Shown piece by piece: positions 41,214 through 51,584 of a stretch of DNA of 64,000 nucleotides. Both the position numbers and the translations under genes were made by a program. The stretch spans positions 62,001-126,000 of the forward strand of contig WRJX01000105.1 of NCBI GenBank assembly GCA_009778385.1, read 5' to 3'. This DNA is from Candidatus Bathycorpusculum sp. (GTDB lineage Archaea > Thermoproteota > Bathyarchaeia > Bathyarchaeales > Bathycorpusculaceae). The notes beneath the pieces were generated by a model. The model did no database searches, was not told the origin of the DNA, and worked only from the letters and a program-made list of their open reading frames with translations. Within the stretch, counting starts at the first letter, position 1; every line of letters begins with the position of its first letter.

Positions 41214-42575
41214 TTATTTGCCGATTACTCGGACATCCTCCACCATAATCCATGGTGCAATTAAACCACCAACTTGTCGCTCATTGTTGCCTACAATTTG
41301 GACATTTTTTAGTACTTCAAAAATGTTGCCTGCAAGCATAACATCTCGTGAAGCAAAAACAATTTCACCATTTTTGATTTTCCATACTGGTGTTGCTACA
41401 ACTGAGAATTCGCCACTCACTGGATTACTACTATGTGCACCTTGCAGGTAATAAACAAGTAAACCATCGTCAACTTGCCGTATCATATCGTCCGCTGAAG
41501 AGGTTCCGGGCATTATGTGAAAGTTTGTTATGTCAATGTTTGGTGTAGATAAATACCCAGCGCGCGAAGCATTACCTGTGCTCTCTTTGCCTTCTTTTTT
41601 GGCAGCATAGTTGTCGTAAAGAAAGTTTTTAAGAACCCCTTTATCAATTATCAGGGTTTTTTGGTGTGGTACACCTTCACCATCAAACAGCCAAGTCCTC
41701 ATTCCACCTGAATATGAGCCATCATCATAAATAGTAAGGTTTTCTGAGACAACTTTTTCACCGATTTTTCCCTTAAACGGAGACTGCCCCCGCTGTACAC
41801 TATCGGCCTTTATCGCATTAAGCAACGTGTAACCCAACAAATCTTGCAAAGCAAACTGCGACAAAACCAACTTAGTGGTTTTGGTTTTGATTGGCTTTGT
41901 TTTTAAAGTTGAAACAGAGAGTCTTGCAGCTTCGCTTCCAACCCATGTGGGGTCAATTTTGTAGTTTCTTGCAGCGTTAAACTCAAAACAAACCGGCGTC
42001 ACCTTATCACCATATTTGGCTAAAGTTGCCAAGCTACATTCAATAACAGTACCCTTGTCAAAACCATAGACACCATTAGAGTTGACAACTGCATTGGAAA
42101 TGTAAGCATTTCCTATGCCACCTTCAGCCACAAGAACATTTTTATCAACTTGACTAGCAGAGTCAATCATGACCTGAGATATATTCACCAATTCATCAGA
42201 GCCAATCTCCAAAACTTTACTGTCAAATGTACCATCCAAAACAGAAACATATGGCTTCTTTTGAGCAAAGCCTTTCCAATCAGCATCAGGTTTACTTGCT
42301 TTAGCGGCACTTAACGCGCGAACCACTATATCTTCAATCGCGTTTAGATCGCTAACAATATTTGTATAAGCAAAACCCATGGCCTTGTTGACAACAACTC
42401 TAACTCCAACGCCCCGGTCAATAATCTGGTTAGTCTTATTTACTTGTCCAAGCTCAATACCAACATTGGAAGCTTGCCCCTCGTAAACGTAAGCTTCAGC
42501 TTCAGAGGCCCCCCTTGCAACTGCTACATGAACTGCTTTTTCTGCTATAGTTAACATTTCATCTTTTTCAAGCAC
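41214..42575 (-). CDS. pmbA: TldE/PmbA-type subunit of the TldD-TldE protease
   Basis: The roughly 450-aa protein is the TldE/PmbA-like partner of TldD. It has [39 protein letters not shown] and the C-terminal [33 protein letters not shown]. It has no HExxxH. TldD/E together form a metallopeptidase that digests unfolded or modified peptides. It overlaps the end of tldD, so the two are coupled. The start is uncertain: a GTG at 42575, an ATG 18 bases later, or a TTG at 42596. Confidence 0.9.
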
Positions 42576-43953
42576 TGCCACCAACAACCACCTCACTTAA
42601 CCTAATATGCGGTCCGCCATCACCAATAAAAGCGATTTGACCTTTACCACATCTACCCGAATTTATGGCGAAATCTTTGCCTACAGCATCCACTTTTAAC
42701 AGAGTTTCAAGTGTATTACCACTTATTGAAGCATCTCTTACTGAAGCGCCAATTTCACCGTTAACAATTTCATAACCCTCCTGTATGCCAACTTGGAATG
42801 TACCGTCAATATTCGCCTGACCACCTCTAAAACTCTTAAAGAAATAACCCGACTTAACACCTTCTAAAAGTTCTTCAAACTTGTGATCTCTAGGCGCCAT
42901 GTACGTGTTACGCATACGTATAATAGGCTCTACACGAAAATCTTCAGCTCTAGCATTACCTGTTGGTTGAATGTTAAATTTGTAGGCTGTTTCACGATTA
43001 TGCATAAGCCCCGCCACAACACCGTCTTTTATCAACAATGTTTTCTGCGTTGGAACGCCTTCATCATCATATTTAAATGAGCCAAAAGCTCCAGGAATAG
43101 TACCATCATCATAAAAAGTTACCAAGTCTGAACCAATCTTTTTACCCATCGCATTAAACAGAATACCACCTGACAAAGCCAAATCCGCCTCCGCCAAGTG
43201 CCCAAAAGCTTCATGGACAAACACACCCACTACATTTGGACCTAACACAACAGGAGCTTTACCGCCCTTAAGTGATTTAGCTGATAACTGCGCTACTGCA
43301 CGTTTTGCAACGGCTTCACCAATCTCTTGTGGAGGCTGGGCATCAAAAACTTCATAGCCCAATGTAGAGCCAACTTCTTCACGGCTGAAAGTGAAAACAC
43401 CATAACTTTCAACAGAAGCAGTAATTCTTGACCATACAAACATTTTATCCTGCTGAATATTTGTACCCTCACTGTTAACAAAAAAACTGGAACCTGTCAA
43501 ATCTAAGTAGTCCACTGTGCAGCTTTTAATTCGCTTATCATACTGTTGGATTGTCTTGTTTATTTGAAAAATATCTTTGATTTTGTCTTCCATCGCTATG
43601 TCTGCAGGATTCTTTTTTGATTTAACCTCAACATGATCAGTTACTGTTTTAGCCGCTACAAGTTTAATCGGGTTTTTAAGCCGTTGACTTGCAGTTTTAG
43701 CCATTATACACGCATTTGAAACTGCCGTTAACAAAATATCGTCTTCAAACGAACCAACTGAAGCAAAACCCCACGCACCGTTAACAAGTACACGTAGGGC
43801 AACACCATTTTCTATTCCCTGCTTAGCAGCTTCTACACGTTCCTCTTTAAGGGTAAACATGGTTTTATGGAGTTTTTGTGCTCTCGCCTCTGCATAGTAT
43901 GCACCATGTTTCTGCGTAGCAGCTTCTATGATTTTTAAGAGAACTTGTTGCAA
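42568..43953 (-). CDS. tldD: TldD-type zinc metalloprotease subunit
   Basis: TldD is the catalytic subunit, seen from [15 protein letters not shown] with the HExxxH zinc motif. [31 protein letters not shown] and [27 protein letters not shown] are conserved TldD blocks. I place the start at TTG 43953, preceded by AAAAGG at 10 bases; seven further codons upstream are open. First gene of the tldD-pmbA pair. Confidence 0.92.
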
Positions 43954-44130
43954 GAGTATCAAACCTTTTGACAAAGAAACAGTTACTAATGATTTTACGG
44001 AAATTAAATTGTTTTGTTTCTATAGAGAAAAGAGGCTGGAACTGCTTATGTGTTATGCATCTATATCGCTATTTCACATAGTCTATTCTTGTTTGCACTT
44101 AGAGTACTCTCTATGGAAACTGCACCACAT

Positions 44131-45526: not shown

Positions 45527-45892
45527 TTATTCTTGTTCATTTAGAAGATTTTGTTTTAGTTTGCCAAGTGACAGAGCGTTTTTGATTAGGCGTTCAAGGA
45601 TTTCATAGTCAGAATGCTGTACAGTTACTTCTTTAAATTTTACATAATTGTTATTTTTTGCGTCAGTTACCAATTTTTCAAATTCTTCATCAAAAAGTCC
45701 GTTAGTTAAAATCAATTTACCGTCAAGAAGTCTCAAATCACAATCGAAACAGTACTCAAAATCAAACTCCATTTTTCGTCCTTTAGAGTTGCCTTCGCCA
45801 AAATATGTTAAATCATCTAATTTATTGAATGAAACATCGTCAAATTCGATAAATGAAACTCGGGTTTTTTTGATAGCATGATTATGGCTCAA
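45527..45892 (-). CDS. Unknown soluble protein, last gene of the SPFH cluster
   Basis: The 121-aa acidic protein has TRVSFIEFDDVSF, FDFEYCFDCDLRLLDGKLILTNG and FEKLVTDAKNNNYVKFKEVTV blocks, probably an alpha/beta fold. I recognise no family. It starts with a 4-base ATGA overlap with the upstream membrane gene, so it is translated with the SPFH operon. Confidence 0.75.
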   Translation of the reverse strand: MSHNHAIKKTRVSFIEFDDVSFNKLDDLTYFGEGNSKGRKMEFDFEYCFDCDLRLLDGKLILTNGLFDEEFEKLVTDAKNNNYVKFKEVTVQHSDYEILERLIKNALSLGKLKQNLLNEQE

Positions 45893-46275
45893 ATTAACAC
45901 CTCTTTGGAGCCAAAAAAGGGATCCACAGAGTGTTTGTGACGTAATGCAGTGGCAATCCCCAATGCAGCAAGCACTAGCAAGACTAATGCTAACGCGTAC
46001 AGGACGCTGCCTGTGAGATCAAAGAGGAAAACTGCTCCACCAAATGCAATCAATGTTAACCCTAAAGCCATTGTTCCAAATGGACTTCGGGCGTACTTGA
46101 CTGGGTTGCTTGACTGCATGTATGCTAAGGCTAACATCCAACAACCGAACACTAACAGCGTTACCGGTAAAATAAGCATCCAGCTGATAAGTGATGCTGC
46201 ATACAGCAGCACACCCACTGTGACAGCAACTAAGAGCATGGAAGCAGTTAATAGTTGGCGGTTACCTTCATTCAT
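45889..46275 (-). CDS. Four-helix membrane protein in the SPFH cluster
   Basis: The 128-aa protein has four hydrophobic segments, about residues 10-29, 31-52, 68-86 and 88-109, with a short cytoplasmic tail RHKHSVDPFFGSK. It lies 17 bases after the SPFH gene and overlaps the next gene by four bases. Such small membrane proteins often anchor SPFH assemblies, but this is inference. Confidence 0.8.
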   Translation of the reverse strand: MNEGNRQLLTASMLLVAVTVGVLLYAASLISWMLILPVTLLVFGCWMLALAYMQSSNPVKYARSPFGTMALGLTLIAFGGAVFLFDLTGSVLYALALVLLVLAALGIATALRHKHSVDPFFGSKEVLI

Positions 46276-46292
46276 ACTTATCTTTTACTCCG

Positions 46293-47270
46293 CTAGGCGA
46301 TTTTGTTTCCGCATTCGGGACAGAATTTGCTGTTTGCTGGGATGGATTTGCCGCATTTAGAGCAGGATATTGTTCCTTCGGATGGCGGGGTAAGGTTTGT
46401 TCCACAGGCGGGGCAGAATTTGCTTGTTGCAGGTACTTTCTCACCACATTTAGGACAGATAACAAGGGCTGCTGCAGGTGCTGCTTGGGGTTGTCCTTGT
46501 TGGTTCATGATTTGTGGAATGAGCACCATTCCTGCACCTAATGCACCAGAGCCGCCGCCTTTGCCAAGAGATTCTGCAGTCTGTTTCATTGTTTCCATGC
46601 GTAATACTTCACTGGACGCAGTTTGACCAGTTTTGAGCCAGAACAGGCGTTCACGGTATTCAGGTGTTGTGTCTATGCCTTCGAATCTTAGATCAGTTAG
46701 TTCTATGCCTACGCGTTTGAAATAGTCAATGAGAGTGTTTTTGACAATGACACTTGTTTCACCTAAGCGCGTGAAGACCGTAATTAAGTCATAGTGACTG
46801 AGTTCACTTATGATTTTTTCGTTTAAGTAACCGCGTAAGAAACTGTTAACTTGATCAGTTGTGTAAGCGTTTTGTCCACCCATTACTTCATTAACAAACA
46901 AGGTAGCATTTTCAATTTTAAACCAGAATTGTCCATAAGTCTGTAGAGGCGCTAATTCTGTAGTTTGTGCTTTTGTTCCCCATTTGCCAGCAAATATTTT
47001 AGTGCTGACGAAAATGACTGCAGCTTTGAAAGGCTTGTTTCCACCAAAACCAGCAAGTCTTGTCAACAATCCAGTGAGCAGAGGCAGGTTTAGAGTAGTT
47101 AAAGTGTGCCTTCCCGGACCAAAAACATCATAGGCTTTACCATCACGGAAAAATACTGCCAGCTGGAATTCTTGAACGACCAGTTGTGAGCCCCAAGTGA
47201 TTTCCTCATTAGGGTACCTCCAAACGATTGCGTCTGGACCAGCATTTGTCCATTCTATTACTTGTGGCAT
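46293..47270 (-). CDS. SPFH (band 7) protein with two C-terminal zinc ribbons
   Basis: The 325-aa protein is of the virion-core/YdjI-like SPFH type: an N-terminal VIEWTNAGPDAIVWRYPNEEITWGSQL, QEFQLAVFFRDGKAYDVFGPGRHTLTT, a helical oligomerisation region (RLGETSVIVKNTLIDYFKRVG), a glycine-rich linker, then two CxxC zinc ribbons CPKCGEKVP...CPAC and CSKCGKSIP...CPEC. In Bacillus the similar YdjI works with YdjG and PspA at the membrane under stress. It overlaps the upstream coiled-coil gene by one base. Confidence 0.88.
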   Translation of the reverse strand: MPQVIEWTNAGPDAIVWRYPNEEITWGSQLVVQEFQLAVFFRDGKAYDVFGPGRHTLTTLNLPLLTGLLTRLAGFGGNKPFKAAVIFVSTKIFAGKWGTKAQTTELAPLQTYGQFWFKIENATLFVNEVMGGQNAYTTDQVNSFLRGYLNEKIISELSHYDLITVFTRLGETSVIVKNTLIDYFKRVGIELTDLRFEGIDTTPEYRERLFWLKTGQTASSEVLRMETMKQTAESLGKGGGSGALGAGMVLIPQIMNQQGQPQAAPAAALVICPKCGEKVPATSKFCPACGTNLTPPSEGTISCSKCGKSIPANSKFCPECGNKIA

Positions 47271-47806
47271 TATTGTGTCACTCCCATTATTACTTCTTTA
47301 CGTTTATCAAATGCATCCTCAAGTGCTTCAAGCTTGTCTGCTACAACTTGAGCTTGATCTTTGAGGTTACTATAGTCACCTGCTACTAGTTGAGCTTTAA
47401 AGGCGTCAACAACGGCAGTTAAAGCGTTCACGTAGTCGATTAGTTGATTATCAAAGGCTATCATACGATCAAGATTTTCTTCTTTAACTTTCACTATGTC
47501 AAAAAATCCGCTATAACCATATGAGGCGTGATTTATTTTTTCTGTCACACGATCAATTTTTGCTGTTAACCTATCCATGTCAGGTAAAACGTCTAAGTAA
47601 CGGCGGTCTGTAATTTTTTGAAATATGCTACGAATACCGTCTTTTGCACCAGATAATTTCGTGTATAAGTGATTGCGTACCAGTTTATCTGATTCTCGGC
47701 GTAGTTCTTTTTCTTTGTATCCTCTAAAGCCGGGCAGGGCTGTTGCAATGCGTTCAGAAAGCCGCATTTGGCCTTTTGCTTGCGCATACACATCTTTTTC
47801 GCTCAT
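47270..47806 (-). CDS. Helical/coiled-coil protein in the SPFH cluster
   Basis: The 178-aa protein has a N-terminal helix QAKGQMRLSERIATALPGFRGYKEKELRRE and long helices with heptad-like spacing (DRLTAKIDRVTEKI; NLKDQAQVVADKLEALEDAF). It has no membrane segment. Not PspA by sequence, though the length and helical nature would allow a PspA-like partner role for the adjacent SPFH protein. The two genes share one base. Confidence 0.78.
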   Translation of the reverse strand: MSEKDVYAQAKGQMRLSERIATALPGFRGYKEKELRRESDKLVRNHLYTKLSGAKDGIRSIFQKITDRRYLDVLPDMDRLTAKIDRVTEKINHASYGYSGFFDIVKVKEENLDRMIAFDNQLIDYVNALTAVVDAFKAQLVAGDYSNLKDQAQVVADKLEALEDAFDKRKEVIMGVTQ

Positions 47807-47873
47807 TTTTAAATTCCGACCTATATGTTTTCGATATAGAAAAAAGGCTACTTAAAAATGTTGTTAAAACAAA

Positions 47874-48620
47874 TTAGAACCTGATTGAGGGTATATCTCC
47901 CTTCAACGCATTACCAGTTGAACCATCAATAATTAACTGATACAGATTCCCCTTATATTGGTATTTAATGAACCAGGCAGGCGCATGCAAATACAACATC
48001 TGTTTAAGCTCCAACGTGGTAGAGATTTCTATAACGCGGTCGACATCTTGTTGGAGTAGAAAACGGTGCTGATTTTCAATCTGCTGTTTAGCCAGTTCCA
48101 AAGCTTCATCTTTACCTATTTCACTGTTTAACACTTTGGCGAACCCTTCAATTTTTCGAAAATCATACGGGATCTTACCAGCTAAAGGCACTTTATATTC
48201 ACGCGTAGGAAAAACAGCAGCTTCCCTTGCCAAGACAAGCCAGTTGTACTCTTTTTCAATCTGCCCATCTTTCACAATTGACGGAGAAATACGCTCGAAA
48301 ATACCCTTATATTTGGTTATAGCAACGGCAGATACAACCCAAAACGGCAAATAAACAAGATCTTCCTCGATGATTTTCGATTTTTTGGCTAAATCACCAG
48401 GTTTCATGAAACCGCTACTCATCCAGTCTTGAATGCGCTTTTCCATCTGAGCTAGGTCATAATTGTTCAAAATTAAAGAGTGCTCAAAATTGAAGGCTTG
48501 TCCTGTTTGAATAACAGTTGTAAAACCGCAGTATTTACAGGTGGCTATTATTTCTCCGGGTTTGAATTCAACTGGAGCACCGCAATGTGAACAGCGAATT
48601 TCTTTAGCCACAACAGTCAT
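47874..48620 (-). CDS. Zinc-ribbon protein in the SPFH cluster
   Basis: The 248-aa protein has an N-terminal zinc ribbon, CSHCGAPVEFKPGEIIATCKYCG, related to the ribbon of YdjG-like proteins. A soluble alpha/beta domain follows with VYLPFWVVSAVAITKYKG, FAKVLNSEIGKDEALELAKQQ and LHAPAWFIKYQYKGNLYQLIIDGSTG (a repeat-like strand-turn-strand end). There is no strong membrane helix. It lies 67 bases upstream of the coiled-coil gene and 6 bases after the FAD dehydrogenase gene. Confidence 0.78.
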   Translation of the reverse strand: MTVVAKEIRCSHCGAPVEFKPGEIIATCKYCGFTTVIQTGQAFNFEHSLILNNYDLAQMEKRIQDWMSSGFMKPGDLAKKSKIIEEDLVYLPFWVVSAVAITKYKGIFERISPSIVKDGQIEKEYNWLVLAREAAVFPTREYKVPLAGKIPYDFRKIEGFAKVLNSEIGKDEALELAKQQIENQHRFLLQQDVDRVIEISTTLELKQMLYLHAPAWFIKYQYKGNLYQLIIDGSTGNALKGDIPSIRF

Positions 48621-48626
48621 ACTGGT

Positions 48627-50012
48627 TTAGACCTTCAACAATTTTTCACGTTTTAAAATCTCTCTTGCAACTATAACACCTGAGGCAGATGCTTGAATTA
48701 AACCACGGGTTACACCTGCGCCATCGCCGATGGTGAACATGTTGTGAATCTTGGTTTCCAATGAATTGGTTAATTGCAGGTGACTGCTATAGAATTTGAC
48801 TTCGACACCGTAGAGCAGTGTGTCTCTTGAGTGAACTCCGGGAGCAATCACGTCAAGTGCTTGAAGGATTTCACGAATGTCTGCTAGGTAACGGTAGGGT
48901 AAAACGAAACTTAAGTCGCCGGGAGTGGCGTTTTTGAGTGTTGGCTGAACTACACTACGGGCTAAACGTTCAGGGGTACTACGCCTACCGGCAGTCAAGT
49001 CACCTAAACGTTGTACCATAACTCCGCCACTAAGCAAGTTTGAGAGGCGAGCGATGTATTTGCCGTAGGCAATTGGTTCCTTGAATGGTTCAGTAAATTG
49101 GGTACTAACTAGTATAGCAAAGTTAGTGTTATTAGTTTTACTTTCGGCTTGACTACCACCATTTACTGTTAGGACACCATCATAAGATTCTGTTGTCACT
49201 TCACCATAAGGTGAGACACAGAAGGTGCGAACTTGGTCGTCGAATTGTTTTGAGTAGTAAATTAGTTTGGGTTCATAGAGAACTTTGGTTAGTTTCTCCA
49301 TAGCTGAAGCCAAAACTTCAACACGTACACCTATGTCGACTGGATTATTTACGGTCTTTAAGCCACGAATTTGGGCTTCAGTTTGTAACCATTCGGCCCC
49401 GCCTCTTCCAGGAGCAATAATTACATATTTTGCGCAGTATTTTTCTCCAGCTGTTGTTTCTACTCCTTGAACAACGTTATTTTCGATGATTAAGCCTTTA
49501 ACGTCAGTTTTTGGTTTAAAAGTAATTTTACTTTCTAAGGCTTTAAACATGCGCTTTAAAACTTCGAGGCATTTATCGGTACCCATGTGGCGAACTTCTT
49601 GTTTTATAAGCTTTAACCCTGCAAGAGAAGCGCCTTTTTCTATCTTGTTCACTTCCTCATTTTCTGTACCGTAAACAGTTTCGCTTGCACCAAATTTGAG
49701 GTAAATCTCATCACAGTATTTTACAAGGTCGGCTAATTCTTTGTTTGAAAGATACTGGTTTAACCAGCCTCCAACCTCTGTGGATAATGTGAGTTTACCA
49801 TCACTGTAGGCACCTGCTCCACCCCATCCTGAAAGGATAGCACATGGTTCACAGTGTACACATTCAAAACCTCTTTTCGAGGGACATCTACGCATATCAA
49901 TTTCTTGTCCTCTATCCAAGACGAGGACGTTAAGGTTTGTTGTCTCTGTTAATTCTAAAGCTGAAAATATGCCTGCGGGGCCTGCGCCGACGATTATTAC
50001 ATCATATTTCAA
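48627..50012 (-). CDS. FAD-dependent dehydrogenase (COG2509 type)
   Basis: The 461-aa flavoprotein starts YDVIIVGAGPAGIFSALEL, carries CPSKRGFECVHCEPCAILSGWGGAGAYSDGKL (four cysteines, probable redox or metal site), VIIAPGRGGAEWL and MFTIGDGAGVTRGLIQAS near the FAD end. Members of this family are poorly characterised oxidoreductases. It lies 6 bases before the zinc-ribbon gene and may lead that operon. ATG start. Confidence 0.88.
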   Translation of the reverse strand: MKYDVIIVGAGPAGIFSALELTETTNLNVLVLDRGQEIDMRRCPSKRGFECVHCEPCAILSGWGGAGAYSDGKLTLSTEVGGWLNQYLSNKELADLVKYCDEIYLKFGASETVYGTENEEVNKIEKGASLAGLKLIKQEVRHMGTDKCLEVLKRMFKALESKITFKPKTDVKGLIIENNVVQGVETTAGEKYCAKYVIIAPGRGGAEWLQTEAQIRGLKTVNNPVDIGVRVEVLASAMEKLTKVLYEPKLIYYSKQFDDQVRTFCVSPYGEVTTESYDGVLTVNGGSQAESKTNNTNFAILVSTQFTEPFKEPIAYGKYIARLSNLLSGGVMVQRLGDLTAGRRSTPERLARSVVQPTLKNATPGDLSFVLPYRYLADIREILQALDVIAPGVHSRDTLLYGVEVKFYSSHLQLTNSLETKIHNMFTIGDGAGVTRGLIQASASGVIVAREILKREKLLKV

Positions 50013-50317
50013 AGAGTACAGCTCCGTGGAAATCCAAAAGTAAATACAAGCAGTTGAATATATTTGTTAGCAAAAAGTAACTACAAAATCGCGGTTAAAC
50101 TTCACACAAGAAACCTTTAACCTCAAAGATACTCCGTCTATCCCCCCACTACACCAAAAAGATGACACAAAACTACTATGTCTACAAGCACCATATCAAA
50201 ATGCAAGGCGGTAACAGAAAAAATTTTCATATATTGTTATTTAGTGTTAGTTAGCTCTTTCTTTATAGAAATTTTGAAAAACAAAAAAGAAAGGAAAAAT
50301 AGTCTCTTAGAGGAAAA
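50013..50317. other. Intergenic region, no supported gene
   Basis: About 300 A/T-rich bases between two minus-strand genes. A 30-codon plus frame at 50162-50254 is unsupported. The promoter of the FAD dehydrogenase/SPFH operon should lie near 50030-50060; TTGAATATATTTG at about 50054-50066 is TATA-like in both directions. Confidence 0.4.
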
Positions 50318-50676: not shown

Positions 50677-51051
50677 TTGCAACCAAAAAAAGATGACACA
50701 CCAATAAAACGTATGGCAGATTTGCTGCGGCAAGGCGCAACGTTAACGGATCTTTCATGCCCAGCTTGCTCGTCACCACTATTCAGATTCAAAGATAACA
50801 CGCTTTGGTGTGAGCAGGATCAGAAAAAAGTGGTAATTGTAAAAGAGGGCAAACAAACACCAGTTCAAATGGCACCTCAAACAGACATAGCCTACGATAA
50901 ACTTGAAACTACCTTGTTAAACAAGATTCAAGTGCTTGAAGATAAAATCGAGAAAACAGAAGACGTTGAAGAAATACAGAAATTAAGTGCTGCCCTTTCG
51001 GAATTATTAAACAGTTTGGAAAAAATCAGAAAAATAAAAATTAAAACATAA
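50677..51051 (+). CDS. SSSCA1/autoantigen p27-like zinc-ribbon protein
   Basis: The 124-aa protein has a zinc ribbon LSCPACSSPLFRFKDNTLWCEQDQKK followed by a coiled coil KLETTLLNKIQVLEDKIEKTEDV. The N-terminal KRMADLLRQGATLTDLSCPAC is the hallmark of the Sjogren/scleroderma autoantigen 1 family in archaea. The start is TTG 50677, with GAGGT 7 bases before. Its stop overlaps the next start by one base. Confidence 0.88.
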   Translation: MQPKKDDTPIKRMADLLRQGATLTDLSCPACSSPLFRFKDNTLWCEQDQKKVVIVKEGKQTPVQMAPQTDIAYDKLETTLLNKIQVLEDKIEKTEDVEEIQKLSAALSELLNSLEKIRKIKIKT

Positions 51052-51584
51052 TGGAACCATTAATGCTTGGTAAATATGAAAATTTTCCGGTAAACATTCA
51101 CTTTTTGGAAACTTTTTCTTCAACACTTAATAGTAAACAGCTTCAACAAAAAGTCATCCAAACCTTAAAAGAGTTAAACAGAAAACCGTTCCATTTTGAA
51201 GAAATCACTATCCCCACTATCCCAAACAGTGAAGTTATTTTTGAGTTTGGTATAGCTGAAGATGAATGTTTTAATTTTCTTGATGATCAAGAAACCAACC
51301 GAGCACTCAACATACTTAGAAGCGAGCAAATTTTGTCACTTGACTTTTTTTGTGTAATACGCTATTACAAAAATGAACCACAAAAAAGGGTAGCTTTAAA
51401 ATTTGATTATTACATATTTAAAATCAGTTTTATAGCTAAAATGGTAGAGTTTCAGATTTTTCACAAGCAGGGGCCACGATATATTGCCCCAGAAGAACTT
51501 GTAACAATGATCACGGATAGAATAAACAAAGCTGCAAACAAACGAGTTTTAGATAAAAACGTACAGGAAAACGCCGAGTTTTAA
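51051..51584 (+). CDS. Unknown alpha/beta protein coupled to the SSSCA1-like gene
   Basis: A 177-aa protein with FPVNIHFLETFSSTLNSKQLQQKVIQ, IPNSEVIFEFGIAEDECFNFLD, and LKFDYYIFKISFIAKMVEFQIFHKQGPRYIAPEELVTMITDRI segments. It shows no clear signature. The one-base overlap with the upstream zinc-ribbon gene (TAATG) suggests coupled translation and a shared role. Confidence 0.75.
   Translation: MEPLMLGKYENFPVNIHFLETFSSTLNSKQLQQKVIQTLKELNRKPFHFEEITIPTIPNSEVIFEFGIAEDECFNFLDDQETNRALNILRSEQILSLDFFCVIRYYKNEPQKRVALKFDYYIFKISFIAKMVEFQIFHKQGPRYIAPEELVTMITDRINKAANKRVLDKNVQENAEF

Follow-up and report, generated by a model that had tools for sequence, protein, structure and literature searches.

A YdjI-type SPFH gene paired with the gene of a helical protein in Bathyarchaeia without PspA

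What does a gene cluster that resembles the Ydj genes of Bacillus consist of, and what might it do, in an archaeon that lacks PspA? The locus that raises this question lies in a stretch of 64,000 nucleotides from Candidatus Bathycorpusculum sp. (GCA_009778385.1, contig WRJX01000105.1, positions 62,001-126,000 of the forward strand), which we call the window and whose coordinates are used throughout. In Bacillus subtilis, YdjI is a soluble protein that binds PspA, and both of them require YdjG and YdjH for recruitment to the membrane (PMC8581546). Surveys of archaeal Psp systems have taken components of the Psp response, among them PspA and PspC, as their starting point, and found no Psp domain at all in more than half of archaeal genomes (PMC9239133).

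Gene content and transcription units

Positions 45527-50012 are filled exactly by six open reading frames on the minus strand, A to F (Table 1), and all six have strongly conserved homologues in relatives. A first-pass annotation of the window had described this group as one operon, possibly a new stress or membrane-quality system, with a redox member that hinted at sensing of electron flow or membrane damage. Its inventory was accurate: the six genes do run together, the SPFH protein ends in two zinc ribbons, E has four hydrophobic segments in a hydrophobicity scan, and F is acidic (pI 5.1), with changes mostly at third codon positions, as expected of a gene that evolves as coding sequence. 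The start-stop overlaps by which several of the genes were thought to be linked exist at two junctions, C/D (1 base, TAATG) and E/F (4 bases), while A/B, B/C and D/E are separated by gaps of 6, 67 and 17 bases.

The gap between B and C contains a TATA-like box that is found in 22 of 23 sequences, compared with a mean of 2.2 and a maximum of 8 of 23 after shuffling. It is mostly positioned 46-56 bases ahead of the start of C, with one case at 64. Upstream of A, an AT-rich AAATATAT core at a distance of roughly 50-60 bases was judged by eye to be conserved in the relatives compared. With these boxes, the cluster is probably divided into an A-B and a C-D-E-F transcription unit in tandem, with read-through possible. 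We rejected a single six-gene operon on account of the conserved box between B and C and of the uneven conservation of the genes.

Two overlapping genes for TldD/PmbA-family metallopeptidases are located downstream of the cluster on the same strand (41214-43974). On the other side, upstream of A, a gene at 50318-50596 matches UPF0147 and the NCBIfam SRE_fam 'stationary phase-response protein' above curated cut-offs; this gene and the divergent genes at 50677-51584 keep their position upstream of A in many relatives.

Table 1. Features of the cluster, in window coordinates.
Feature	Position	Strand	Evidence	Remark
TATA-like box AAATATATT upstream of A	50057..50065	-	kept in relatives	putative promoter
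A, FAD-dependent dehydrogenase-like protein, 461 aa	48627..50012	-	PF07992 5e-11; FAD-depend_C PF21688 3.5e-10	accessory; opens the A-B unit
B, N-terminal zinc ribbon and YdjG-type domain, 248 aa	47874..48620	-	hhalign to YdjG profile; alignment with Firmicutes homologues	
TATA-like box CATTTTTAAG in the B-C gap	47851..47860	-	motif conservation	putative own promoter of C-D-E-F
C, helical protein, 178 aa	47270..47806	-	adjacency to D; phylum co-occurrence; AlphaFold	
D, YdjI-type SPFH (Band_7_1) protein with two C-terminal zinc ribbons, 325 aa	46293..47270	-	PF13421 1.9e-31	
Zinc ribbon 1 of D, residues ~270-293	46392..46463	-	Zn_Ribbon_1/Zn_ribbon_3 matches	
Zinc ribbon 2 of D, residues ~302-323	46302..46367	-	DZR 272-321 and second Zn_Ribbon_1 match	
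E, four-helix membrane protein, 128 aa	45889..46275	-	four hydrophobic windows	accessory candidate anchor
F, acidic protein, 121 aa, no family assigned	45527..45892	-	homologues in five close relatives	

Conservation of the C-D pair and its neighbours

Comparison across archaeal genomes, the check proposed with the first-pass annotation, revealed a nearly invariant C-D arrangement and did not find A, E and F conserved together with it. A sample of 101 Bathyarchaeia genomes yielded 83 genes for C and 82 strong matches to the SPFH protein D. D lies downstream of C on the same strand for 81 of the 83 C genes (80 directly, one with a B-like gene in between), and C lies upstream of D for 81 of the 82 D genes; all three exceptions, two C and one D, are found at contig ends. 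Spacing between the two genes is -1 to +4 bases in the 28 loci that were read closely, and each of the four copies in one genome (G096) is a C-D pair. In one locus of Bathycorpusculum hydrogenotrophicum (L055:4785-5809), D is split over two overlapping frames, the result of a frameshift or an assembly error.

The association extends well beyond the Bathyarchaeia. Among 398 Thermoproteota genomes, 189 contain both C and D, 16 only C, 2 only D and 191 neither (Fisher p 4e-91, a descriptive value only, as shared ancestry is ignored), and 91 of the 98 pairs with coordinates are adjacent, the remaining 7 lying within ~1.5 kb on the same strand. Detection of D was limited at 1e-10, and since several of the C-only genomes come from a clade with D scores that hover near this limit, some of them probably represent missed D genes. 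Roughly half of the Thermoproteota sampled carry the pair, complete genomes included. It was also seen in Coatesbacteria, in Hyd24-12 and in Cloacimonadota, where 13 of 120 genomes have C, and Sulfolobus acidocaldarius has a match to the SPFH (D) family. In several Cloacimonadota the pair is followed by YdjG-like genes; Clostridia and Bacilli lack C at such loci, and there YdjG-like genes come directly after YdjI-like ones. In the neighbourhoods examined, C-D is not repeatedly accompanied by any other enzyme gene. The conserved core of the cluster is the C-D pair, not the set of six genes.

The remaining genes vary with lineage. In 25 of the 28 close Bathyarchaeia loci A adjoins B, with tight spacing that is conserved within one family, and among the loci examined this adjacency is confined to the window's own family; other Bathyarchaeia, other Thermoproteota and bacteria carry C-D without A. 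As a neighbour, the FAD protein is specific to one clade; the mechanism proposed below does not need it, and nothing beyond this adjacency in one family speaks for the suggested sensing of electron flow. Many Bathyarchaeia keep E downstream of D, and it is frequent in one type of them. It is absent from five close termite-gut relatives (L033, L037, L039, L041 and L042), in which F directly follows D, and these five are the only relatives in which homologues of F were found. Both the A-B and the D-E adjacency are clade-limited. A, E and F are additions restricted to certain lineages, and the view of the whole cluster as one system is not supported. Since close relatives lack E, and B is sometimes kilobases away from C-D, the scaffold proposed below would have no fixed membrane anchor.

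Searches of E against Pfam gave no clear family. Two candidate identities were rejected, LiaI-LiaF-TM (2 of 20 members match the LiaF-TM profile, best E 0.4) and YdjH with its TPM domain (no match by hhalign).

Other neighbours were seen elsewhere. In a second Bathyarchaeia type (L124, L125, L126, L141, L145, L146), an arrestin/Spo0M-like protein and/or a ribbon protein of ~410-510 aa is encoded upstream of C-D, and a small double-ribbon protein frequently accompanies it; the arrestin/Spo0M-like assignment was tested with Pfam in L124 and L141. Three further Thermoproteota loci (L272, L274, L278) have a gene of ~320-340 aa between D and a B-like gene, with weak TPR-like matches in L272.

Relation to the Psp and Ydj proteins

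The likeness to the Bacillus YdjFGHI theme pointed out by the first-pass annotation reflects true homology for two of the proteins, as judged with hhalign against YdjG and YdjI profiles built from actual pspA-ydjG-ydjH-ydjI operons. D matches YdjI with a probability of 99.5 (E 1e-22), and on this profile evidence is a homologue of it. Its best Pfam match is to Band_7_1 and not to Band_7, accompanied by two Zn_Ribbon_1 matches. While D shares the SPFH domain with flotillins and other classical SPFH proteins, it differs from them in this domain type, in its zinc-ribbon end and in having no hydrophobic membrane segment in a hydrophobicity scan, and only a short stretch lies between its SPFH domain and the ribbons. 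A sequence search of D against solved structures returned only weak matches to the ribbons. B aligns with YdjG over 232 columns (probability 97.6, E 3e-12) and by this alignment is a short YdjG homologue, without the first ribbon of YdjG and without the C-terminal membrane helix of its Firmicutes relatives; a Foldseek search of the PDB with the B model gave nothing at E<0.001.

PspA is a different matter. As the first-pass annotation had noted for the locus, it is absent there, and no PspA_IM30 match over the cut-off was found in any of the 101 Bathyarchaeia, the window's genome included. Across the 398 Thermoproteota, 8 genomes have such a match and only one of these (G588) also carries C. 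Compared with the pspA-ydjGHI operon of B. subtilis, a Firmicutes-type Psp system, the archaeal locus likewise clusters a YdjG-type ribbon protein with an SPFH protein of the YdjI type that ends in zinc ribbon, and both include a helical partner as well as a membrane protein of small size. It differs in having neither PspA nor YdjH (the TPM-domain protein), in the shorter B, in gene order, in the extra FAD gene and in the apparently unrelated helical protein C that stands beside D.

C carries the conserved motifs GY..KE..RE.DK..R and GY.G, and its AlphaFold model (pLDDT 79.7, from 31 sequences) is all-helical. Foldseek of this model against the PDB gave no match at E<0.001. A family profile that recognises C broadly is NCBIfam NF047596, the LIMLP_15305 family of Leptospira, which aligns with residues 37-173 of the window's protein at 58.9 bits and thus falls short of the curated cut-off of 210. 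Because this profile matches 32 of 33 C proteins from archaea and bacteria, a wider superfamily relation between C and LIMLP_15305 is likely. No function is recorded for NF047596 in NCBIfam, and in the literature LIMLP_15305 has one mention in a table, with no function given. A Cloacimonadota C protein searched in plasmid records had no match there. We found no description of a C-YdjI pair in the literature searched; to judge by the comparisons above, what is new at this locus is an archaeal YdjI-type module without PspA and with the helical C beside D, whereas B and D belong to known Ydj types.

Possible roles of C and D at the membrane

The fixed position of C makes it the likely partner of D. 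We favour a Ydj-type membrane scaffold with C-D as its core and C in the place of PspA, a reading to which we give about an even chance; the binding, the membrane targeting and the role in stress or repair are parts of it that we infer. By homology, D should perform YdjI-like scaffold work with membrane-linked partners of the B and E types. Having no membrane helix of its own, D would oligomerise through its SPFH domain and be held at the membrane by small membrane proteins such as E and by zinc-ribbon proteins related to YdjG, of which B is an example. At the place occupied by PspA in Bacillus, C would be a dedicated helical subunit or cargo of D, and by gathering C at the membrane D may allow damaged or fluid regions to be stabilised or remodelled. 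The role of PspA is assigned to C on the grounds of its position and the absence of PspA, not of any likeness to PspA.

That C is itself a very divergent member of the PspA/ESCRT-III family appears quite improbable. It is true that C is small, helical and adjacent to a YdjI-type gene in a PspA-less genome. However, its hhalign probability is ~1% against PspA and 0.4% against Snf7, in a test that also fails to join PspA with archaeal Snf7 and could therefore miss a relation of C to either. Fold comparison points the same way, as PspA and ESCRT-III entries are absent from the 50 best matches listed for C, and its predicted helices of 43, 22, 33 and 20 residues are unlike the long hairpin of PspA. 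Even less probable, and the least probable of the readings considered, is that the whole A-F cluster forms one redox-responsive system for membrane damage with the FAD protein as its sensor. The tight A-B spacing conserved within one family would fit such a system, but A does not accompany C-D in other families, classes or bacteria, and the conserved TATA-like box parts A-B from C-D.

A more serious contender, though still unlikely, is that C serves the SPFH cage itself, as a structural subunit or a chaperone, and supplies the coiled-coil part that D lacks; the pair would then form a flotillin-like microdomain or scaffold, or hold membrane proteases, with no PspA-like activity. This would suit an all-helical C that stays with D whatever the other neighbours are, and the short stretch between the SPFH domain and the ribbons of D. 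The YdjG-type partners indicate a Ydj system instead, and no recurrent enzyme gene accompanies the pair. We consider it improbable that C and D act as an adaptor that recruits ESCRT-III (CdvB/Snf7) encoded elsewhere, as YdjI recruits PspA, with C as a linker and not a remodeller. Snf7-family genes are present in 59 of 61 relatives, this genome included, mostly as weak matches, but no ESCRT-III match of this genome is located on the contig that carries the locus. Some archaea have ESCRT loci to which SPFH-zinc-ribbon proteins are linked (PMC10936438). Those Meth_adaptin loci share with ours an archaeal SPFH-zinc-ribbon protein in a predicted membrane-remodelling cluster, whereas no adaptin or Vps4 gene was recognised here.

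Returning to the scaffold in which C stands in for PspA, it is possible, and we suggest this only tentatively, that C founds a family of SPFH-dedicated helical membrane remodellers, unrelated to PspA and ESCRT-III, which does the job of PspA in some bacteria and in roughly one of every two Thermoproteota. For membrane protection in archaea that lack PspA, the C-D pair is a concrete candidate that can be tested, and Sulfolobus acidocaldarius is a genetically workable species. It also offers a test of whether SPFH scaffolds need an effector of the ESCRT-III type. If C does prove to be a remodeller outside the PspA family, the YdjI-type SPFH protein would be the older, constant part of these systems, and PspA one interchangeable effector.
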